Assembly (NCBI RefSeq): GCF_001940455.1
Contig: NZ_MKQR01000032.1
Coordinates: 124,001-188,000 of the forward strand
DNA length: 64,000 bases
Direction: 5' to 3'
From: Actinokineospora bangkokensis
GTDB taxonomy: Bacteria; Actinomycetota; Actinomycetes; Mycobacteriales; Pseudonocardiaceae
Positions 29,761-61,125 of the stretch are shown one piece after another. The notes under the pieces were generated by a model, which worked only from the letters and a program-made list of their open reading frames with translations, did no database searches and was not told the DNA's origin. Every line of letters begins with the position of its first letter. Positions within the stretch are counted from its first letter, which is position 1. A program made the position numbers and the translations under genes.

Positions 29761-29994
29761 ATGACTATGCAACCACAGCAACCCGAACGACGACGACGTC
29801 GGGCGCTTGGCAACCAGCCGCGCTACTACGTCCATGGTGTTCGCCGCGATCCGCTCGACCTGAAGAAGTTCAGCCGCGCCCTGCTGGCCTTGGTCGAGGC
29901 CGACCTGGAGACGCAGGCCCTGAGCGAGCACCAGCCAAGCCCGGAGTTCCCGGCCGAGTCCGAGGCTTCGCGCCGAGGTGGCCGCCATGGCTGA
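29761..29994 (+). CDS. Small hypothetical protein before the transfer ATPase, 77 aa
   Basis: GAGAGGAGGAAG lies directly ahead of the ATG. Arg-rich N-terminus (PERRRRRALGNQPRYYVHGV) and a short helix (DLKKFSRALLALVEADLE). Its end overlaps the start of the ATPase gene by eight bases, so it is translated with it. No family recognised. Confidence 0.55.
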   Translation: MTMQPQQPERRRRRALGNQPRYYVHGVRRDPLDLKKFSRALLALVEADLETQALSEHQPSPEFPAESEASRRGGRHG

Positions 29995-32143
29995 CCCCTC
30001 GGCGCTGGTCTTCTCCAGCCTGCACCTGCCGCGGCCCATGGAGGCCGCTGACCTCGCAAGCTTCTTGCACCGTCTGGCCGCCGACCGCCAAGCGCCGCGC
30101 CTGGTGCTGGAGGCCCGTGCTGACCAGGGTGGTGTGCGGTACCTGCTGGGCGCGGCGCGTGCCCACCTGACTGGACTGCGGCGGCTTCTGGTCGACCTGC
30201 TGCCGGGCAGCAGCCTGGCCAAGGCCAGCCCGCGCTTGGCCGTCGATACCGCCGTGCGCCTCAAGCTCAGCCCCCGCAGCCTGCCGCTGCTGACCGATCG
30301 CCCGGAGGCCACGACCCGGGCGCTGCTCTCGGCCTTGTCGGTCATCACCAAGAAGGGCGAGCAGCTCGTTCTCCAGGTGGTCCTTGGTCCGCGGCGGGCC
30401 CCGGTCACAGTGGCCGAAGGCACAGCCGACCCGGATACCAGCCTGACGCGGCTGGTGCTCGGCATGCCGACCAAGGCCAGTCCCGAGACCCGCCAGCGCC
30501 TCAAGGCCCGGGTGTCGCACAGCGGCTTCGCCCTGACCATCCGCTTGGGCGTCACCGCTGCCGACCCTGCCCGCCGCCAACGCCTCGTGCTGGGACTGCT
30601 GAGCGCCATCGCCACGGCGCAGTCGCCGGGTGTGCGGATCTCGACTCGCAGGCAGCACCCGCGCGCCATCGAGCGCGCCGAGCAGCCACTGCGCTGGCCG
30701 CTCCGGCTGGCCGTCGACGAGCTGGTCGGCCTGTTGGCCTTGCCCATCGGTGGCGGCGAACTGCCGGGGTTGCCGCCACTGCACCCCAAGCCGCTCCGGG
30801 CGGCCAAGTCGGTGCACGGCGACGAGCGCGTCTTCGTGCAGAGCGCCGTGCCCGGCGACGACCGCACCCTCGGCATTTCCGCCAAGGACCAGACCTTCCA
30901 CGGCATCACCTACGGCCCGTCGGGGAGTGGCAAGACCACGGCCATGCTGTCGCTGATCATGGCCGACATCAACGCCGGACGGGCGGTTGCCGTGCTTGAT
31001 CCGAAACGGCAGCTCATCGACGACATCCTTGCCCGCACACCGAAATCCCGCTGGGACGATGTCGTCGAGATCAACCCCGGCGAGCCGGGCCCGGTCACCT
31101 TCAACCCGCTCGACGTCTCCGGCCGCGACCCGGACGTGGTGGTCGACGGCATCCTGGCTGTCTTCGAGCACGTCTTCCACGACGGCTGGGGGCCGAGGAG
31201 CAGCGACATCTTCAGCGCCACCCTTCGCACCCTGGCGAGGGCAGCGGCCAAGGGACTGCCCGCGACTCTGCTCGACCTGCCGCAGCTGCTGGTCGATCCG
31301 GCCGTGCGACGGCGCTACGTCGGGCACAGCCAGGACGACCTCGCCCTGGCGGGCTTCTGGGCCTGGTACGAAAGCCAGAGCCCGCAGGCGCAGGCAGCGG
31401 CCATCGCCGCGCCGCTCAACAAGCTGAGGCAGTTCCTGCTCCGCCCGGCGCTGACACGGATCCTGGGCGATCCCGAGCCGCGCTTCAAGCTGCGCAACCT
31501 GTTCCGCGACAAGCGCATCCTGTTGGTACCGCTCAACGATGGCCTGATCGGCCCTGGCACCGCCTCCTTACTCGGCAGCCTGATCATCGCTGACCTCTGG
31601 CAGGCCACACAGGAGCGAGCCGCTGAACCCGACGCCAACGCCCACCCGGCCACCATCGTCGTCGACGAGGCCCCGCGCTTCCTGCACCTCGGCGTCGGCT
31701 TGGCCGATGCCCTGGCGGTCAGCCGTTCTCTGTCGGTGGGGTGGTTTTTGGCGGCACAGTTCCGCGACCAGTTCCCACCGGCGCTGCGCTCGGCGGTGGA
31801 CATGAACGCCCGCTCCAAGCTGATCTTCGCCACCGAGTACGACGACGCCCGCGACATGGCGCGGCTGGCCCGCGAGCTGAGCGTGGAGGACTTCACCAGC
31901 CTGCCCCGGTGGCACGCCTACGCCAACCTGGTGGCCCAGGGACACCCGTCCGGCTGGGCCTTGGTCAAGACGCTGCCGCCCTCACCGCCGATCACCGATC
32001 CGGCCGAGGTCCGGGCGCGCATCGCTGCCAACTTCGCACCACTGGCGCCACCGTCTAGCACCGGCGCCACCCCGACGACCTCACCGCCTACGCTAGCCAA
32101 CCCGATGAACCCAGTGGTGGGGCGAAAGCGCAGGTCGTCATGA
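29987..32143 (+). CDS. TraG/VirD4-like conjugative coupling ATPase, 718 aa
   Basis: Pumps or recruits DNA for transfer. Walker A GPSGSGKTT is about residue 310, Walker B IVVDEA about 558, with AVLDPKRQLIDDIL after the P-loop and a Gln-rich finger FLAAQFRDQF later, as in TraD/TraG/HerA-related ATPases. The N-terminal 290 residues are Arg/Leu-rich without obvious TM helices, so membrane binding may depend on the small upstream membrane proteins. ATG 29987 overlaps the preceding gene; GTG 29978 is possible. With the following replication-relaxation gene it forms the element's transfer core. Confidence 0.75.
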   Translation: MADPSALVFSSLHLPRPMEAADLASFLHRLAADRQAPRLVLEARADQGGVRYLLGAARAHLTGLRRLLVDLLPGSSLAKASPRLAVDTAVRLKLSPRSLPLLTDRPEATTRALLSALSVITKKGEQLVLQVVLGPRRAPVTVAEGTADPDTSLTRLVLGMPTKASPETRQRLKARVSHSGFALTIRLGVTAADPARRQRLVLGLLSAIATAQSPGVRISTRRQHPRAIERAEQPLRWPLRLAVDELVGLLALPIGGGELPGLPPLHPKPLRAAKSVHGDERVFVQSAVPGDDRTLGISAKDQTFHGITYGPSGSGKTTAMLSLIMADINAGRAVAVLDPKRQLIDDILARTPKSRWDDVVEINPGEPGPVTFNPLDVSGRDPDVVVDGILAVFEHVFHDGWGPRSSDIFSATLRTLARAAAKGLPATLLDLPQLLVDPAVRRRYVGHSQDDLALAGFWAWYESQSPQAQAAAIAAPLNKLRQFLLRPALTRILGDPEPRFKLRNLFRDKRILLVPLNDGLIGPGTASLLGSLIIADLWQATQERAAEPDANAHPATIVVDEAPRFLHLGVGLADALAVSRSLSVGWFLAAQFRDQFPPALRSAVDMNARSKLIFATEYDDARDMARLARELSVEDFTSLPRWHAYANLVAQGHPSGWALVKTLPPSPPITDPAEVRARIAANFAPLAPPSSTGATPTTSPPTLANPMNPVVGRKRRSS

Positions 32144-34032: not shown

Positions 34033-34449
34033 ATGAAAGCCGAAGCAGGACTGCGAAATGCCTTTGTGTATGTCCGCGTGGAGGGTGACGATGCCAGCAC
34101 GCGGATGGCCGACGACCAGCGCGCCGTCTGCTCCGAACTGGCCAACAGGCACGGTCTGCGCGTGGTGGGCGAGTACGTCGACCACGGCCCGGCCGTGGCC
34201 AGTCGGCAAGGTGAGCTGCAGCGGCTGATCGACGACGTCACCAGCCAGGCGGTCTGCGCAGTGCTGGTGTACGACCTGGCACGCCTGGCGGGCGACCTGG
34301 TGCGGCTCGAAACCATCTTGGCGGAACTGAAGGCTCGTGGTGCTGACGTCCTGACGGTCATGGGGGTGGAGGTCGCCGAGCGCTTTGTGGCTGCCCAGCG
34401 GATGCGTGAGGCGTTCCGGCGGCTGCCACAGGTCGGAGGTGCCGAGTGA
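34033..34449 (+). CDS. Serine-less resolvase-fold protein coupled to the integrase, 138 aa
   Basis: The resolvase catalytic fold is visible (NAFVYVRVEGDDASTRMADDQRAV; VVGEYVDHG; AVLVYDLARLAGDLVRLETILAELK), but the catalytic Ser of YVRVS is Glu and the DRLSR arginine block reads DLARLAG. It ends without a DNA-binding domain. GTGA overlap couples it to the large serine recombinase, AAAGGGGG gives its ribosome-binding site. It could pair with the active recombinase as a regulatory subunit or directionality factor (inference). Confidence 0.65.
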   Translation: MKAEAGLRNAFVYVRVEGDDASTRMADDQRAVCSELANRHGLRVVGEYVDHGPAVASRQGELQRLIDDVTSQAVCAVLVYDLARLAGDLVRLETILAELKARGADVLTVMGVEVAERFVAAQRMREAFRRLPQVGGAE

Positions 34450-36200
34450 GCGGCTCGCTGCGTGCCTATGCCTACCTGCGGGTCAGCACCAAGGAGCAGG
34501 CGGCCAAGGGTGGCCAGGACGAGGGCTACTCCATCCCGGCGCAGCGGGAGGCGGTCTACCGCAAAGCCCAGGAGTTGGGTGCGGTGGTGGTCGGAGAGTT
34601 CGTCGATGCCGGGGAGTCGGCCAAGTCGGCGGATCGGCCGGACTTGCAGCGGATGTTGGTGGCGCTCCGTTCGGAGCCGGTGGATCTGGTGCTGGTGCAC
34701 AAGGTCGACCGGTTGGCGCGCAACCGGATGGACGACGTGACGATCACGATGGCCATCCGTGCCGCGGGCGCCAAGTTGGTCTCGGTGATGGAGAACATCG
34801 ACGAGACGCCGAGCGGCATGCTGATGCACGCCATGCTGTCAGGGTTCGCGGAGTACTACTCGCACAACCTGGCCGTCGAGGTCCACAAGGGCATGAGCCA
34901 GAAGGCGCTGCGGGGCGGGACCAACAACAAGGCGCCGCTGGGCTACCGCAACACCGGCAAGCTCAGCGACGAGGGCCGTGAGGTGCGGACGGTGGTGGTC
35001 GACGAGGAGCGGGCCGAGCTGATCTGCTGGGCGTTCCAGGCGTATGCCACTGGCGAGTGGACGTTGCGGTCCATGGCCGCCGAGCTGGAGGTGCGTGGGC
35101 TGCGGACCCGGCGGACGCCGAAGCTGCCGGAGAAGGTGATCCAGCCGAGCATCCTGCACAACATCTTGACCAACCGGTACTACCTGGGCGAGGTCCGCTA
35201 CCAGGGGGTGTGGCACCCGGGGAACCATCCACCGCTGGTGGATGCGGTGACGTGGCAGAAGGTGCAGGAGGTACTGCGCGAGCATCTGCTCGGCGAGCGC
35301 CAACGTGAGCACCGGCATTACCTCAAATCGTCGGTGTTCTGCGGTGACTGTCTCTCGCGATTGACGATCACCAACGCCAAGAACCGTCACGGCGTGGTCT
35401 ACCCGTACTTCGTCTGCCTGGGCCGTCACGCCAAACGGACGGATTGCCGTCGCAAGGCCATCCTGATCTCCACTGTCGAGCAGATGGTGGAGGACTACTG
35501 GTCCCGGGTGGAGCTGACGCCAGCTGTGCGGGCGCTGGTGGAGGCCGATCTGCACCGGACCCTGGCTGCCACCCGCGCCGAAGCCAAGCGAGCACGGGAA
35601 CAGTTGCAGCGCGAACGACAGGCGGCCGAGGCGAAGCAGAAGAAGCTGGTGGAGGCGATCTACGCCGGAGCCATGCCACTGGACTTAGTGGCGAAGGAGC
35701 AGCAAGCGCTTGCTGGCCAGTTGGCCCGCATCGACGAGCGGCTGGCTGCCACCGACGTGGCCTTCGTGGAGCTTGAACGCAACCTGGCGGTAGCGCTGGA
35801 GCTGGCAAGCAACTGCCACCGGGCCTACCTGGCGGCTCCACCGGCGACTCGCCGGTTGTTCAACCAGGCGTTCTTCGAACGACTGGAGATTCGCCAGGAG
35901 GGCGTGGGCGCTACCGTGGCGGCTCCATTCGAGCAGATGCTCGGCATAGCCCGACGAGTGCAACTTCCACCCGAACGAGCGATGCCGGACGTGAGCGATG
36001 TCACGACCGTGGCTGATGTACTGCAACGAGGGCAGAACGACGAACTCCCCAGCGCACCTGACGGTGCGTCTGGGGAGTTCTCTGTTCTGACCTCGGGATC
36101 TACTTTTTTGGCCGAGGGTTCGGATAAGCACGCTTTGGTGCCCCTGGCAGGACTCGAACCTGCGGCCAAGAGCTTAGAAGGCTCCTGCTCTATCCGCTGA
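34446..36200 (+). CDS. Large serine recombinase (integrase), 584 aa, ending inside the tRNA gene
   Basis: Catalytic N-domain with Ser14 in AYLRVSTKEQ and the arginines of HKVDRLARNRM; a recombinase domain (LGYRN, about residues 165-280); a zinc ribbon (CGDC about 298, then CLGRH and C); and a coiled coil (RAEAKRAREQLQRERQAAEAKQKKL). The last 22 residues (ALVPLAGLEPAAK onward) are the antisense reading of the tRNA-Arg gene, so that part arose by integration or is read-through. A terminator-like hairpin lies about 120 bases before the stop. It is the enzyme that most likely inserted the element here. Confidence 0.85.
   Translation: MSGSLRAYAYLRVSTKEQAAKGGQDEGYSIPAQREAVYRKAQELGAVVVGEFVDAGESAKSADRPDLQRMLVALRSEPVDLVLVHKVDRLARNRMDDVTITMAIRAAGAKLVSVMENIDETPSGMLMHAMLSGFAEYYSHNLAVEVHKGMSQKALRGGTNNKAPLGYRNTGKLSDEGREVRTVVVDEERAELICWAFQAYATGEWTLRSMAAELEVRGLRTRRTPKLPEKVIQPSILHNILTNRYYLGEVRYQGVWHPGNHPPLVDAVTWQKVQEVLREHLLGERQREHRHYLKSSVFCGDCLSRLTITNAKNRHGVVYPYFVCLGRHAKRTDCRRKAILISTVEQMVEDYWSRVELTPAVRALVEADLHRTLAATRAEAKRAREQLQRERQAAEAKQKKLVEAIYAGAMPLDLVAKEQQALAGQLARIDERLAATDVAFVELERNLAVALELASNCHRAYLAAPPATRRLFNQAFFERLEIRQEGVGATVAAPFEQMLGIARRVQLPPERAMPDVSDVTTVADVLQRGQNDELPSAPDGASGEFSVLTSGSTFLAEGSDKHALVPLAGLEPAAKSLEGSCSIR
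36042..36080. terminator. Terminator-like hairpin inside the integrase 3' end
   Basis: GAACTCCCCAG and GCACC pair with GGTGC and CTGGGGAGTTC around a TGAC loop. Followed by a run of six T about 35 bases later. Its place within the open frame suggests that the functional end of the integrase message precedes the tRNA. Confidence 0.5.
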
Positions 36201-36211
36201 GCTACAGGGGC
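36136..36211 (-). tRNA. tRNA-Arg (anticodon UCU), element attachment site
   Basis: A full cloverleaf is readable: acceptor GCCCCTG/CAGGGGC, D-arm TAGCTCAGCGG, anticodon loop CTTCTAA, T-arm with GGTTCGAGTCC, encoded CCA. The gene runs leftward so its 3' end faces the mobile region, and the recombinase is directly adjacent: the usual geometry for integration at a tRNA 3' end. No second copy of the 3' segment is visible, so the other junction is outside the window. Confidence 0.95.
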
Positions 36212-36388
36212 GCGGGGGCGGACTGCCGAGGGTGCACAGTAGTCCGTTCCTCTTGGTTGATCGCTGGAGACGGGCCCGGCGTTTCTCCCCGGCGGCGTGG
36301 TGGGGGCGTTCGGGGGAGGGTGGGGGGCCGTTCGGGGGGTGGGGTGGCTTGTCACGGTGGGTGGTGGGGAGGCGTCTACGCTCTGGTT

Positions 36389-38407
36389 GTGGCTGGTGAT
36401 GGCGTGACTGAGCGTGAGGTGGCTCGGGGGCCCCGCGGGGTGGGCGGGGTGGTCGGGCTCGTGGTGGTGGGCGTGCTCGCGGCGGGTGTTGTCGCCGTGG
36501 TGCTGCTCACGCTGACGGGTGGGGCCGCGGAGGTGTTGCCGGGGTTGCCGCAGTCCGATGCCTTCACCGGGTATGCGTTGACGCTCGTTCGGGTGGTTGC
36601 CGAGGCGGGCAGTGTGGTCACGATCGGGGGGTTGTTGTTCGCGGCCTTCTTCGTGCCGCCGCAGCGGTCGGGTGTGCTGGACGTCGGGGGGTACGGGGCG
36701 CTGCGGATGGCGGGGTGGGGGGCCGCCGTGTGGTTCCTCGGATCGCTGCTGCTCGCCCCGCTGACGGCGGCGGACGCGGCGGGGTTGGGCGTGGGGGACG
36801 TGCTGCGGACGGATGTGCTGGTCGACCTGGTGGGCGGGTTGGAGCAGCCGAAGGCGTGGCTGTTCACCGCCGGGTTCGCGCTGGTGGTGTGGGTCGGGAC
36901 GCGGTTCGTGCTGAGCTGGGGGTGGACGGCGGCGCTGTTCTTCGTGTCCGTCGCGGGGGTGGCGCCGGTGGCGCTGACCGGGCACTCGGCCAGCGGCGGG
37001 TCGCACGACATGGCGACCAACAGCCTGTTGTTCCACCTGCTCGCGGCCGCGCTGTGGGTCGGGGGGCTGATCGCGCTGCTGGTGCACGGGCGGCGCGGTG
37101 GGGCGCACCTGGGGTTGGCCGCGGCGCGGTTCTCGAAGGTCGCGCTGGTGTGCTGGGTGGTGATGGCCGCGTCCGGGGTCGTCAACGCGTTGATCCGGCT
37201 GCCGGTGCGCGACCTGTTCACGTCGAGCTATGGGCTGCTGATCGTCGCCAAGACCGCTCTCCTCGTGGTGCTGGGCGTGTTCGGCTATTTCCAGCGCGAG
37301 CGGGGCGTCAAGGGCGTCGTGGAGCGGGGTGACCGGGGGGCGCTGCTGCGGCTCGCCGGGGTCGAGGTGCTGGTCATGCTGGTGACGATCGGGGTGGCCT
37401 CGGCGCTGGCGCGCACGGCGCCGCCCGCGTCGGTGCAGGTGCAGCCCGACCGCACGGAGATCCAGCTCGGCTACACCCTCGACGGGCCGCCCACCGCCGT
37501 GCGGCTGCTGTTCGACTGGCGGTTCGACCTGGTCTTCGGCACCGCCGCGCTGGTGCTCGCCGGGCTCTACGCGGTGGGGTACCGGCGGCTGCGGGCGCGG
37601 GGGATCAGTTGGCCGGTCGGGCGGGTGATCGCCTGGATGGCGGGCTGCTTCGTGATCCTCTTCGCGACCTCCTCCGGCGTCGGCCGGTACTCGCCGGCGG
37701 TGTTCAGCGTGCACATGGAAGCGCACATGATGCTCTCCATGCTGGCGCCGGTGCTGCTGGTGCTGGGCGCCCCGGTGACCCTCGCGCTGCGCGTGCTGCC
37801 GACCGCGGGCCGGGACAACCCGCCCGGGCCGCGCGAGTGGCTGCTGGCGGCGGTGCACTCGCCGGTGTCGAAGGTGCTGACGAACCCGGTGGTCGCGCTG
37901 GTGCTGTTCGTCGGGTCGTTCTACGGGCTGTACCTGACCGGGTTGTTCGACGCGGCGCTGCCCGAGCACTGGGCGCACCTGCTGATGAACGCGCACTTCC
38001 TGCTGGTGGGCTACATCTTCTACTGGCCGGTGATCGGGGTGGACCCGGCGCCGAACCGGCTGCCGCACCTGGGCCGGTTGGGCCTGGTGTTCGCGTCGAT
38101 GCCGTTCCACGCGTTCTTCGGCGTGATCATCATGGGCATGGACACCGTGGTGGGCCTGACCTTCTACCAGTCGCTCGGGCTCACCTGGAACGCCGACCTG
38201 GTCGGCGACCAGCGCCTCGGCGGCGGCATCGCCTGGGCGTCCGGGGAGATCCCGCTGCTGCTGGTGCTGATCGCGCTGCTGGCGCAGTGGTCGCGGGCCG
38301 ACGAGCGCGAGGCGCGCCGCACCGACCGCCGGGTGGACGAGGGCGGGTCGGACGACCTGGAGGCCTACAACGCCATGCTGCGCCAGATGGCCCGCGACAA
38401 GCGGTAG
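36389..38407 (+). CDS. Fused CopD / cytochrome c oxidase assembly (CtaG-type) membrane protein, 672 aa
   Basis: About 16 hydrophobic segments. The first half resembles CopD copper-resistance proteins (GHSASGGSHDMATNSLLFHLLAAALWVGGL with conserved His). The second half resembles Caa3_CtaG (FSVHMEAHMMLSMLAPVLLVLG; HWAHLLMNAHFLLVGYIFYWPVIGVDP; PFHAFFGVIIMGMD), where the His and Met probably bind copper for oxidase assembly. GTG 36389 is chosen just before the first TM; GTG 36257 and 36404 are alternatives. First chromosomal gene after the element; no gene in 36212-36388. Confidence 0.85.
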   Translation: MAGDGVTEREVARGPRGVGGVVGLVVVGVLAAGVVAVVLLTLTGGAAEVLPGLPQSDAFTGYALTLVRVVAEAGSVVTIGGLLFAAFFVPPQRSGVLDVGGYGALRMAGWGAAVWFLGSLLLAPLTAADAAGLGVGDVLRTDVLVDLVGGLEQPKAWLFTAGFALVVWVGTRFVLSWGWTAALFFVSVAGVAPVALTGHSASGGSHDMATNSLLFHLLAAALWVGGLIALLVHGRRGGAHLGLAAARFSKVALVCWVVMAASGVVNALIRLPVRDLFTSSYGLLIVAKTALLVVLGVFGYFQRERGVKGVVERGDRGALLRLAGVEVLVMLVTIGVASALARTAPPASVQVQPDRTEIQLGYTLDGPPTAVRLLFDWRFDLVFGTAALVLAGLYAVGYRRLRARGISWPVGRVIAWMAGCFVILFATSSGVGRYSPAVFSVHMEAHMMLSMLAPVLLVLGAPVTLALRVLPTAGRDNPPGPREWLLAAVHSPVSKVLTNPVVALVLFVGSFYGLYLTGLFDAALPEHWAHLLMNAHFLLVGYIFYWPVIGVDPAPNRLPHLGRLGLVFASMPFHAFFGVIIMGMDTVVGLTFYQSLGLTWNADLVGDQRLGGGIAWASGEIPLLLVLIALLAQWSRADEREARRTDRRVDEGGSDDLEAYNAMLRQMARDKR

Positions 38408-55258: not shown

Positions 55259-55951
55259 GTGCCAGAGCGACAACCGACCCGCCGCGGCGCGCCCCCAGGG
55301 CTCGCGTCGCGGCCGACGCTGTGCCCGCCCCAGGCAGGCCCCGATGGCCTCACCCTGGTCGCGCAGGCGCGCGCCGACCCCGCTCCGATCCCGCTGCCCA
55401 CCCCCGTCGCGACGCCGTTACCGGCTCCCGCGCCGACGTGGGGCCGCAGGCGGGTGCTCCTGCTCAACACCACCTTCGAGCCGCTGACGGCGCTGCCGCT
55501 GCGGCGGGCGGTGGTGCTCGTGGTCTGCGGCAAGGCCGAGGTCGTGCACGGCGACCCGACCGGGCTGGTCGTGCACTCGGCCGCGCACAGCGTCGCCGTG
55601 CCCTCGGTCATCCGGCTCAGCAGCTACGTCCGCGTCCCCTACCGGGGGCGGGTGCCGCTGACCAGGGCCGGGCTGATGCACCGCGACCGCTACCGCTGCG
55701 CCTACTGCGGTGGTCGAGCGGAGACGATAGACCACGTGATCCCGCGCTCCCGAGGGGGGCAGCACACGTGGCAGAACTGCGTGGCCTGCTGCGCGAAGTG
55801 CAACCACCGCAAGGCCGACAAGATGCTCACCGAGCTGGGCTGGCGGCTGCGCGTGGTGCCCACCGCGCCGCGCGGCCCGCACTGGCGGCTGCTGGCGGGC
55901 GTGACCGACGCCGACCCGCTCTGGCTGCCCTACCTCGGCGAGGCCGCCTGA
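55259..55951 (+). CDS. HNH endonuclease domain protein, 230 aa
   Basis: GTG 55259 has GGAGGT upstream. The first 50 residues are Pro/Ala-rich. Then LLLNTTFEPLTALPLRRAVVLV, an HNH-associated N-fold common in actinobacteria, and the nuclease site: CAYCGG, DHVIPRSRGG, and NCVACCAKCNHRKADKML with two zinc-binding Cys pairs. Commonly annotated HNH protein in actinobacteria; physiological role unknown. Converges on the GTRVT-repeat gene with 12 bases between stops. Confidence 0.85.
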   Translation: MPERQPTRRGAPPGLASRPTLCPPQAGPDGLTLVAQARADPAPIPLPTPVATPLPAPAPTWGRRRVLLLNTTFEPLTALPLRRAVVLVVCGKAEVVHGDPTGLVVHSAAHSVAVPSVIRLSSYVRVPYRGRVPLTRAGLMHRDRYRCAYCGGRAETIDHVIPRSRGGQHTWQNCVACCAKCNHRKADKMLTELGWRLRVVPTAPRGPHWRLLAGVTDADPLWLPYLGEAA

Positions 55952-55963
55952 CCGGCGGCCGCC

Positions 55964-56926
55964 TCAGGCGGTGACCCGGGTCCCGCGGGTGACCCGCGTG
56001 CCGCGCGCGGTGACCCGGGTGCCCCTGGTGACCCGGGTGCCGCGCTCCTGGAGGGTGACGCGGGTGCCCCGGGTGACGCGCGTGCCCCGGTGCTCGGCGG
56101 TGACCCGCGTGCCCATCGTGACCCTGGTGCCGCGCTCGACCGCGGTGACGCGGGTGCCCATGGCGGTGACCCGGGTGCCGCGGGTGACCCGCGTCCCGCG
56201 CGTCACACGGGTGCCCATCGCCGTCACGCGGGTGCCCCTGGTGACGCGGGTGCCCATGGCGGTGACGCGGGTTCCGCGGGTGACGCGGGTGCCCATGGCC
56301 GTCACCCTGGTCCCCCGGGTGACGCGGGTGCCCCTCGTGACGCGCGTGCCCATGGTGACGCGGGTGCCGCGCTCGACGGCGGTGACGCGGGTGCCGTTGA
56401 CCAGCAGCGAGGTGACCCGGGTGCCCCTGGTGACGCGGGTGCCCATGGCGGTGACCCTGGTGCCGCGGGTGACCCGGGTGCCGCGCTCGACGGCGGTGAC
56501 GCGGGTGCCGTTGACCAGCAGGGACGTGACGCGGGTACCCCTCGTGACCCGCGTGCCCGTGGCCGTGACGCGGGTGCCGCGCTCGACGGCGGTGACCCTG
56601 GTGCCCATCGCGGTGACCCTCGTGCCGCGGGTGACGCGCGTGCCCATCGCGGTGACCCGGGTGCCCTGGGCGGTGACCCGGGTGCCCCTGGTGACCCGGG
56701 TGCCGCGGGTGACGCGGGTCCCGGCCGTGACCCGCGTGCCGCGCGTCACGCGGGTGCCGCGCGCCACGTCCTCCGCCCAGAGGGCGCGGAAGGCGGCGGG
56801 CGCCGCGAGGTCGCTGGAAGCGGTGACCCGGGTGCCCCGCAGGGCGAGGTGAAGGCCACTCTGACGCACGATCTCACCCGATCGGGTGATAGCGGCGGCC
56901 GCGTCAACGGAAGCAGAGGTGTACAT
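55964..56926 (-). CDS. GTRVT-repeat protein, 320 aa, previously unrecognised repeat family
   Basis: ATG follows a perfect CAGGAGG ribosome-binding site. A 30-residue N-terminus (MYTSASVDAAAAITRSGEIV...) leads to one GTRVT, a 21-residue spacer, then about 38 further GTRVT units in near-tandem to the very end. The units are joined by few spacers: R, A, M, AQ, AM, AT, AR, AVER, AEHR, LQER and SLLVN. The synonymous codons vary between copies (Arg as CGG, CGC and AGG; Thr as ACC and ACG), so selection appears to act on the peptide, not only on the DNA. No Cys, TM or signal peptide. The plus strand is also open, but without a comparable start. Function unknown; high Arg content would suit nucleic-acid or other polyanion binding. 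Confidence 0.75.
   Translation of the reverse strand: MYTSASVDAAAAITRSGEIVRQSGLHLALRGTRVTASSDLAAPAAFRALWAEDVARGTRVTRGTRVTAGTRVTRGTRVTRGTRVTAQGTRVTAMGTRVTRGTRVTAMGTRVTAVERGTRVTATGTRVTRGTRVTSLLVNGTRVTAVERGTRVTRGTRVTAMGTRVTRGTRVTSLLVNGTRVTAVERGTRVTMGTRVTRGTRVTRGTRVTAMGTRVTRGTRVTAMGTRVTRGTRVTAMGTRVTRGTRVTRGTRVTAMGTRVTAVERGTRVTMGTRVTAEHRGTRVTRGTRVTLQERGTRVTRGTRVTARGTRVTRGTRVTA
56874..56889. promoter_or_regulatory. Perfect 16-bp palindrome in the 5' end of the GTRVT gene
   Basis: TCACCCGATCGGGTGA is a self-complementary 16-mer about 40 bases inside the GTRVT reading frame. Candidate operator for feedback control, or simply a chance palindrome. Upstream of the gene (56927-57254) I see only a small CCTT-CCGC-AAGG hairpin near 56978 and no gene. 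Confidence 0.4.
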
Positions 56927-57254
56927 AGTGTGGCCTCCTGAGGGGCGGAAACGCGTCTAGTGGGCGGGTCGACCCTTCCGCAAGGGCCGTACAGGTGAAA
57001 AGCTATGACCCCGACCCGTCACCGACAAGACGTTGTCCGGCTCCGCAGTCCGCCACCAGGCCAGATGGGGCCGTTCGCCCCTTGGCGATAGGCAGAACGA
57101 GCTACCTCGGGTGGGGGCACTCGGCCGATCAGCCTTACCAGGAGAGCACCAACGATCACCCGCAGCGACGCGGGCGGCCACCGCGTCCGCGCCGCGCACC
57201 CGGTCGGCGGGACTCGGCGCACCGGGCCCGACCTCGTCCGTTACGGTTGCACCC

Positions 57255-57512
57255 GTGACGCCCGTCGAGACCGTCCTCGTCTTCGCGGTGATCCCGCTGG
57301 CCCTTTACGGCGTGATCACCCTGGTGACGCTGCGCGACAAGTTCGCCAAGTCGCCCCGATACCGCCCCGGTCAGCAGTGGACCCACGACCCGGTCTGGTG
57401 GTCGGCCAACCCCGCGGGCCTCGGCTCGGCGCACCCCGCCGCGCACGCCGCCCCCGGTGCCGACGCCGAGACCACCCGCACGGCCAAGGGAGGCGCCCGT
57501 GGGAACTGGTGA
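57255..57512 (+). CDS. CtaJ-like aa3 oxidase accessory membrane protein, 85 aa
   Basis: One TM segment (TVLVFAVIPLALYGVITLVTL) followed by a conserved cytosolic RYRPGQQWTHDPVWW motif. Size, topology and motif resemble the small actinobacterial cytochrome aa3 oxidase subunit CtaJ. GTG start. The last 14 bases overlap the DUF5130 gene. Confidence 0.6.
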   Translation: MTPVETVLVFAVIPLALYGVITLVTLRDKFAKSPRYRPGQQWTHDPVWWSANPAGLGSAHPAAHAAPGADAETTRTAKGGARGNW

Positions 57513-57987
57513 GCTCGTCCCGACCCCGGTGGTCGAGGATCCCGAGCACGGCATCGGCGTGGCCCGCACCGCCTCCGGCCGCCTCTCGGTGGCCAGGGAG
57601 AAGGTCCCGGCCAAGCCCGGCCTGCCGTTCACCCCGCAGCAGCTGGCCCGCCTCGACGAGGCGCTGACGCTCGCCTCGCGCGACACCGGCATCGGCTTCT
57701 CGGTCTACCTGGGCGACCTCGGCGAGGACACCCGCGACCGCGCGGAGGAGCTGCACGCCTCCATCGGCGCCGCCTCCACCGACTCGGTGCTGATCGCGGT
57801 GTCCCCGGGGCAGCGCAAGGTCGAGGTCGTCTCCGGCGCGGAGGCCGCGCGCAGGCTGCCCGACCGCGGGTGCAACCTCGCGGTGATGAGCATGGTCGCC
57901 TCCTTCAAGGAGGGCGACCTGACCGGTGGGCTGGTCAGCGGGCTGCGGATGCTGGCCGACCAGGCGGGGCACGCGCCCCGGCGGTGA
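57499..57987 (+). CDS. DUF5130 family protein, 162 aa
   Basis: GTG start overlapping the CtaJ-like gene. Contains a TPM-domain-like core: FTPQQLARLDEALTLASRDTGIGFSVYLGDL and DSVLIAVSPGQRKVEVVSGAEAARRL. Such proteins accompany respiratory or membrane-stress genes in actinobacteria; biochemical role unknown. Followed by a terminator with a T-tract. Confidence 0.75.
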   Translation: MGTGELVPTPVVEDPEHGIGVARTASGRLSVAREKVPAKPGLPFTPQQLARLDEALTLASRDTGIGFSVYLGDLGEDTRDRAEELHASIGAASTDSVLIAVSPGQRKVEVVSGAEAARRLPDRGCNLAVMSMVASFKEGDLTGGLVSGLRMLADQAGHAPRR

Positions 57988-58372: not shown

Positions 58373-60928
<2,556 letters not shown>

Positions 60929-61125
60929 GGAACACCTCGGCGGACTCGTCGATCTCGGAACTGACAATCGCATCCAATCACGACCGGACGACGCGGGGTG
61001 GTCGACGGCGGTCGGCGGGTGCCCCGGGCGGGAAGGTTTCGCCGCCGCCGGGCGTTGCACCGGGGTGCGGGCACCGGGGGTGCCCGGCGAGCAACCAGCA
61101 GATCGAGCGGACGGAGCCGCGCCCC

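Follow-up and report, generated by a model that had tools for sequence, protein, structure and literature searches.

Pentapeptide repeat proteins are built of A(D/N)LXX units that fold into a quadrilateral beta-helix, and multicore RiPP and peptide-pheromone precursors consist of a short leader followed by many identical cores, with free spacers between them and with cores that differ between lineages. In triangular beta-helices each coil is made of three hexapeptides, and the left-handed form (LbH) follows the rule [LIV]-[GAED]-x-x-[STAV]-x in tandem, according to the part of the source available to us (PMC12081914). Knotted solenoids conserved in Brevundimonas, as described in the accessible part of another report (PMC13123833), belong to a different family from the one considered here. 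Finally, the available portion of a further source states that ALAA ends are recognised by ClpX and ClpA (PMC3985003).

In the window, i.e., the whole stretch of 64,000 nucleotides of Actinokineospora bangkokensis DNA that was analysed, we identified a gene for a protein composed almost entirely of GTRVT pentapeptides (Table 1). The original prediction of a 320-residue minus-strand frame with a single ATG, a ribosome-binding site and about 39 GTRVT units was confirmed, with 39 units that are all exact. The first unit comprises residues 31–35, inside the N-terminal region, and the continuous array begins at residue 57. The spacers are R (16 times), AM (7), AVER (4), SLLVN (2), M (2), and seven more that occur once each, giving unit-to-unit steps of 6, 7, 9, and 10 residues plus a single step of 26, and the protein ends in ...GTRVTA. 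Searches of this protein against Pfam, NCBIfam, PDB sequences, PADLOC, and PHROGs returned nothing useful, and none of the anti-phage defence families of PADLOC was matched by three array proteins. The full-text literature (mostly non-subscription), searched by the pentapeptide words and related descriptions and judged from titles, held no paper on the array family. The family is undescribed and without a family model in the sources searched, in agreement with the earlier remark that no described family with this repeat is known.

Table 1. Features of the array locus (positions in the window)
Feature	Position	Strand	Basis
HNH endonuclease gene, convergent	55421..55951	(+)	Pfam HNH_5 7.2e-13; synteny
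Array gene, 320 aa, 39 x GTRVT	55964..56926	(-)	ATG start; ORF and unit count
Repeat region, residues 31-319	55970..56836	(-)	Unit positions
N-terminal leader, residues 1-30, with phi-T-[RLHQ]-[SP] (here ITRS)	56837..56926	(-)	Recurring element
Shine-Dalgarno AGGAGG	56934..56939	(-)	Window sequence; frequent in relatives too
TTTCACCTGTACGGCCCTTGC, strongly conserved 21-nt block at predicted transcription start	56980..57000	(-)	Alignments, genome searches
Predicted -10 TAGCTT	57000..57005	(-)	Best-fit consensus reading
Predicted -35 TTGTCG, 17 nt from -10	57023..57028	(-)	Best-fit consensus reading
DUF5130 gene, divergent, opposite flank	57457..57987	(+)	Pfam DUF5130 1.6e-37; synteny
PepN, beyond DUF5130	58373-61060	(-)	Pfam Peptidase_M1 8.1e-57; synteny

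The array gene is found family-wide in the Pseudonocardiaceae, a group of soil actinobacteria, and is not a lone oddity, which extends the original prediction. By tblastn it is present in all 16 Actinokineospora genomes searched, with 16 to 60 units, and a GTRVT query matches 114 of 249 Pseudonocardiaceae genomes and 28 of 46 genera (about nine candidates scored per genome). Proteins of the family contain between 2 and 60 units, the smallest number being found in L105, so that the array can shrink. Among the matches listed in genomes of the order outside the family, most are low-identity Thr/Arg repeats, and the best of those listed (81% over 42 residues) lies in a 51-aa frame where both strands match. 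Plasmid and phage records gave no match to the window protein at 1e-5.

Upstream of the gene stands a predicted sigma-70-type promoter, whose hexamers are the best fit to the consensus over several positions. Hexamers resembling TTGTCN-N17-TAGCTT precede the 21-nt block in the upstream alignments, and because the predicted hexamers stand just before it, transcription should start within the block. To describe the family we used a set of 100 distinct proteins defined by the block (up to three mismatches) and at least two units, which leaves out the arrays L075–L077 of genus g34 behind a changed block. The sequence TTTCACCTGTAYGGRYCTTGC lies 70–75 nt upstream of the ATG in 94 of these proteins and 52–53 nt upstream in six SVRIT proteins (see below), distances that are to be read with a start-codon choice favouring 66–76 nt. 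At up to two mismatches, the block occurs in 176 of the 249 family genomes and 36 of the 46 genera, nearly always once, against two control hits. The remaining 73 genomes are without it at this threshold, and some of them (g34 and some of g25) carry arrays behind a changed block. The genomes searched from genera g3, g5, and g43 have neither the block nor a GTRVT match, and thus the array gene seems dispensable. An exact 15-mer core of the block was found in 44 of 397 genomes of the order, all of them Pseudonocardiaceae. In a sample of the class it was present in 5 of 296 genomes, two being Actinokineospora and three lying outside the family; as there were also four control hits, the block is at chance level outside the family (3 hits, 294 genomes). 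Single-sequence folds of 20 5' leaders revealed no common RNA element by eye, and a pairing of block positions 11 and 21 (CG 76, CA 9, TG 9, TA 5, CC 1) was too weak to claim. The block reads as a DNA or initial-transcript element, operator-like in character. Further blocks common to the genus lie at 57000–57260 (GGTTGGTGCTCTCCTGGTAAGGC; GCCTATCG.CAAGGGGCGAAC) and may be sites for an activator or belong to the promoter of the divergent small gene.

The array occupies a fixed chromosomal slot, lying between the MscS and DUF5130 genes in 34 of 36 Pseudonocardiaceae loci. In the other two the MscS or the DUF5130 gene was not called, in one case owing to the end of the contig. For this survey the array was located by its own ORF; the gene caller chose it in 5 of the 36 loci, preferring antisense frames. 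The conserved neighbour clusters include PepN (36 loci), MscS (35), DUF5130 (35), an alpha-amylase type (28), HNH (24), and a globin (23), and another conserved neighbour is an Rv2466c-like reductase. Of 13 conserved clusters examined, 11 were named by Pfam, from window genes or one representative, and two had no Pfam match; the identity of the HNH cluster rests on length and gene order. Rfam models around the locus gave one sub-threshold match, to a twister-sister ribozyme at 55523–55590 within the HNH coding region (24.1 bits against a gathering score of 34), which is probably due to chance. To the left of this housekeeping region, positions 1–36200 have a lower and uneven GC content (0.54–0.72 per 2-kb bin) and include a large serine recombinase gene (34410–36197, Pfam Resolvase/Recombinase) and a match to T4SS-type DNA transfer (29924–32140), and are probably an integrated conjugative element. 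The single 2-kb bin at 36001–38000, adjoining the recombinase gene, has a strong AT skew (-0.368).

Behind the block, genomes without GTRVT carry arrays of other words, namely GVRIS, SVRIT, GVRVT, GVRIE, GIRVN, GVRVN, GVRIH, and one GTRIT. The 100 proteins divide into 52 GTRVT, 17 SVRIT, 17 GVRIS, five GIRVN, four GVRVT, and two GVRVN proteins, with GTRIT, GVRIE, and GVRIH represented once each, and together demonstrate a unit code with the consensus [GS][TVI]R[VI][TSNEH]. Position 3 of the type word is Arg in all 100 proteins; position 1 is G in 83 and S in 17, position 2 is T in 53, V in 42, and I in 5, position 4 is V in 63 and I in 37, and position 5 is T in 74, S in 17, N in 7, E in 1, and H in 1. 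Since some lineages have Asn, Glu or His here, a phosphosite reading of R-x-[ST] was dropped. Within each protein the word is nearly invariant and the spacers are variable: 1682 units match the type of their own protein exactly, 39 differ by one residue and 38 by two. The use of one lineage-dependent version of the word along the whole array points to a repeat protein under strong selection.

To follow the history of these words we used a tree of the neighbouring DUF5130 protein, for which 79 of the 100 loci gave a match and 77 distinct rows, none of them GIRVN, GVRVN or GVRIH. On this tree, in which 38 of the 74 inner branches are open, the array type changes 7 times, against 25.6 times after shuffling, and the types are thus largely inherited and rarely switched. 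One such switch is seen in genus g21, where genome G072 has 13 GTRVT units and its sister species G035 has 12 GVRVT units plus a single GVPVT; the DNA upstream of the two genes is similar and their tail, RSEYALAA, is identical. All four Gly codons occur among the 13 GTRVT units and GGC alone in all 12 GVRVT units, suggesting that the array was re-amplified from one changed unit.

The spacing of the units is also constrained. Over 1582 gaps the step from one unit to the next is never smaller than six residues, so that units never abut. A three-unit period of 18 residues, with joining residues in the order x-R-R-x-R-R, is seen in 26 GTRVT arrays that keep a strict six-residue step: pairs of the same class three units apart number 182 of 261, against 127.6 after shuffling (z 7.5), and the 19 distinct strings of these arrays still give z 4.5, all z values reported here being upper guides because shared descent is not accounted for in the shuffles. 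At the DNA level, the units of the strict arrays have no three-unit period overall (2.78 differences at distance three, 2.86 overall), and an identity of 90% or more is reached by 4 of 202 neighbouring 54-nt trimers; duplication at the DNA level is seen in two strict arrays, at six units in L053 and at three and six in L100. In the Actinokineospora arrays short and long spacers alternate with a two-unit period (z 4.8, as an upper guide) and there is no three-unit period. In the SVRIT and GVRIS arrays most spacers are 3–4 residues long and most steps 8–9, and a three-unit period is not clear (z 1.3 and -0.3), and four of the five GIRVN arrays show spacer runs of 2, 2, 7, which group the units in threes or fours.

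AlphaFold predictions gave scattered strands and no confident fold, with a mean pLDDT of 40.7 for a three-row alignment and 46.2 for a single 134-residue segment, which is weak evidence either way because the input was shallow. The beta-solenoid proposed in the original prediction is supported in part: the 18-residue period of the strict arrays speaks for it, but AlphaFold did not yield a confident fold. In Pfam, both the SVRIT and the GVRIS arrays match, among others, DUF2345 and Sarcoglycan_1, and GVRIS alone also matches NosD; all three we take to be beta-helical. An SVRIT protein matches DUF2345 with an E-value of 4.5e-24 and its NCBIfam matches are below cut-off; since as many as 30 Pfam families match it at E ≤ 1, the DUF2345 score is partly repeat bias, and membership of DUF2345 was rejected.

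From these sequence patterns we tentatively favour the reading that the array is cytosolic and forms a homotypic stack, similar to a beta-solenoid, with a ladder of arginines, and that its amount and lifetime would be controlled. Each [GS]-[TVI]-R-[VI]-[TSNEH] pentapeptide would form one short beta-strand of a cytosolic rod or fibre, with the beta-branched positions 2 and 4 directed towards the core, and the invariant Arg at position 3 and the lineage letter at position 5 pointing outwards to form ladders along the rod. The units would stack like on like, which would explain both the letters shared within a genome and their array-wide change. The Arg ladder may bind a partner or a polyanion, the predicted promoter of the gene and its operator-like block would set the amount, and the ssrA-like LAA tail present in many lineages (see below) would hand the protein to Clp proteases and so limit its lifetime. 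Part of this explanation is that the array gene constitutes a mostly single-copy, vertically inherited family of the Pseudonocardiaceae. The beta-stack reading accounts for the classes of residues, for the homogeneity of the arrays, and for the period of 18 residues; the variable spacers of Actinokineospora it does not explain, and a beta-strand unit stacking on its own copies is, in our view, the most economical interpretation. It is unlikely that the arrays are polymers of self-recognition, with one five-letter word containing an invariant Arg per lineage, neighbours that must match, and wholesale exchange by re-amplification, forming a lineage-specific code at a fixed locus.

The same observations have to be weighed for a disordered bead-on-string docking array or decoy, in which the pentapeptide would be a linear motif binding many copies of one partner; its Arg, flanked by beta-branched residues, would be added as a strand to a groove of the partner, and the lineage letters would follow that partner. 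A strictly kept unit among spacers of 1 to more than 20 residues, the low-confidence AlphaFold models, and a copy number varying between 2 and 60 are all consistent with such an arrangement, and whole-array switching would fit co-evolution with a receptor. However, the constraint on spacer geometry, with at least one residue between units in every one of the 1582 gaps, and the 18-residue period of the strict arrays argue against it, and we regard it as somewhat unlikely.

The ends of the proteins and the neighbouring genes bear on the possibility of a multi-copy peptide precursor, from which intracellular proteases would release the pentapeptide, or unit plus junction, out of a leader-plus-array polyprotein; Clp would act through the LAA tail, and the product would be a signal or a modified peptide with lineage-specific letters. 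The leader motif is present in a loose form in 58 of the 100 proteins. Among the 97 closed proteins the C-terminus is LAA in 31, AA in 53, and A in 65, the window protein being without LAA and having a single A. The LAA tails are often preceded by [DE][FY][AS], and on the tree (74 rows) LAA endings require 8 changes. In 25 family genomes the tmRNA tag ends in ALAA (24 genomes) or SLAA (one); genome G098, for instance, has a protein tail CQSDFSLAA and a tmRNA tag AEPKSQREFALAA. Co-variation of tail and tag was considered and dropped: the Phe/Tyr residue agrees with that of the host tag in 11 of 16 comparable genomes and disagrees in 5, with a Tyr tail meeting a Tyr tag in one of five cases, so that there is no simple correspondence between tail and tag.

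A leader, identical cores, and variable spacers resemble multicore precursors, core letters that differ by lineage recall pheromones, and the degron-like tail and the presence of PepN two genes away would also suit a precursor. In contrast, none of the 11 linked conserved clusters named by Pfam in the 36 loci is an exporter or a modifying enzyme of the RiPP type, the best 12-residue hydropathy (median 0.68, with a mean above 1.6 in 4 of 100 proteins) gives little sign of a secretion signal, and the junction is often Arg, the same residue as inside the unit. We thus consider a precursor improbable. The earlier statement that tailoring enzyme and protease genes are missing next to the array holds for those typical of precursors, as none is found among the named neighbours, but a general aminopeptidase, PepN, is present.

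An Arg-rich protein coating DNA or RNA, as the original prediction also suggested, or condensing them, would agree with the mean net charge of the GTRVT (+27.8) and GVRVT (+25.2) arrays. However, the 17 SVRIT arrays in the same slot are near neutral, with a mean net charge of -1.1, i.e., the unit is conserved and the overall charge is not, which makes this role very unlikely as a general one.

In the comparison of reading frames, the peptide is better conserved in the sense than in the best antisense frame for all three types compared, the units having been chosen by peptide likeness, which is a bias toward the sense frame: one peptide accounts for 97.7% against 87.5% of 1105 GTRVT-like units, and conservation is 97.7% against 59.4% for SVRIT and 96.2% against 41.5% for GVRIS. 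An orthologue with the minus frame broken and the plus frame kept had been named as evidence against a minus-strand gene; the opposite is seen, with the minus frame better conserved in relatives. The 39 units of the window have 18 DNA spellings, in which all varying bases are synonymous, including CGN/AGG for Arg, and the 859 GTRVT units of 33 loci have 201 spellings, with 14 one-residue variants. Together, the synonymous spellings and the sense-frame conservation support selection acting on the array at the protein level, as had been proposed from codons that differ while the peptide is kept. The alternative that selection acts on the antisense VTRVP frame, or on a DNA-level repeat serving as a binding array or recombination hot spot, could draw on a nearly self-complementary unit with a ACCCGGGT core and on an antisense frame open for 293 aa in the window. 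It is largely refuted, and left hardly credible, by the lower conservation of the antisense peptide and by the codons of the 859 units, among which each of the four codons for Gly, Thr, and Val and each of the six for Arg is used.

The GTRVT units are enriched in rare codons, with GGA at 17 versus 5%, ACT at 10 versus 2%, and AGG at 10.5 versus 4.6%; over the family, GGA, ACT, CGA, and AGG are about 2–4 times commoner in these units than in long neighbouring genes. For Val, GTC is favoured over GTG (GTC 76 versus 47.5%). The idea that codons are scrambled to counter recombination was rejected, as adjacent units show 2.811 differences and shuffled ones 2.813, with 23 of 47 genes above.

The array gene is thus a family-wide gene of well-known antibiotic producers that has neither a description nor a family model in the sources searched. 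Its protein word evolves in concert and with extreme purity, and the sister species of g21 offer a natural swap experiment. This makes the question of why all copies match testable, and bears on the design of repeat proteins, on homotypic beta assembly, and on regulated proteolysis in actinobacteria.

Compared with known systems, the LAA ends (31/97) resemble the ALAA and SLAA ssrA tags of the hosts, but the array tail is encoded in the gene, is missing from the window protein, and has an aromatic residue that tracks the tag unreliably. The array proteins share with multicore RiPP and pheromone precursors the repeated cores behind a leader, the free spacers, and the cores that differ between lineages, but are without named linked modifying or export genes and without an obvious export signal. 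Like pentapeptide repeat proteins they have a five-residue unit as the conserved word, but their units do not abut and so form no continuous five-residue period, their letters differ, and there is no Pfam match. With regard to the left-handed beta-helix, the original prediction saw a resemblance to its hexapeptide rule, which is not borne out in formal terms: taking the rule as given in the accessible part of PMC12081914, three hexapeptides in a row occur in none of the 52 GTRVT proteins and in 1 of the 100 overall. In GTRVT arrays the i+1 position, [GAED] in the rule, is Thr, the SVRIT and GVRIS arrays have their longer steps, and two GTRVT proteins had no Pfam match over the cut-off, one match to LbH_EIF2B (E 0.093) falling below it. 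On the other side of this comparison, the strict GTRVT arrays resemble the left-handed beta-helix in their six-residue step and 18-residue period, a period that is absent from the Actinokineospora arrays and not clear in SVRIT and GVRIS, and a relaxed rule, with an aliphatic residue at i and a small one at i+4, fits 51 of the 52 GTRVT proteins, against 88 of 1040 shuffled sequences.
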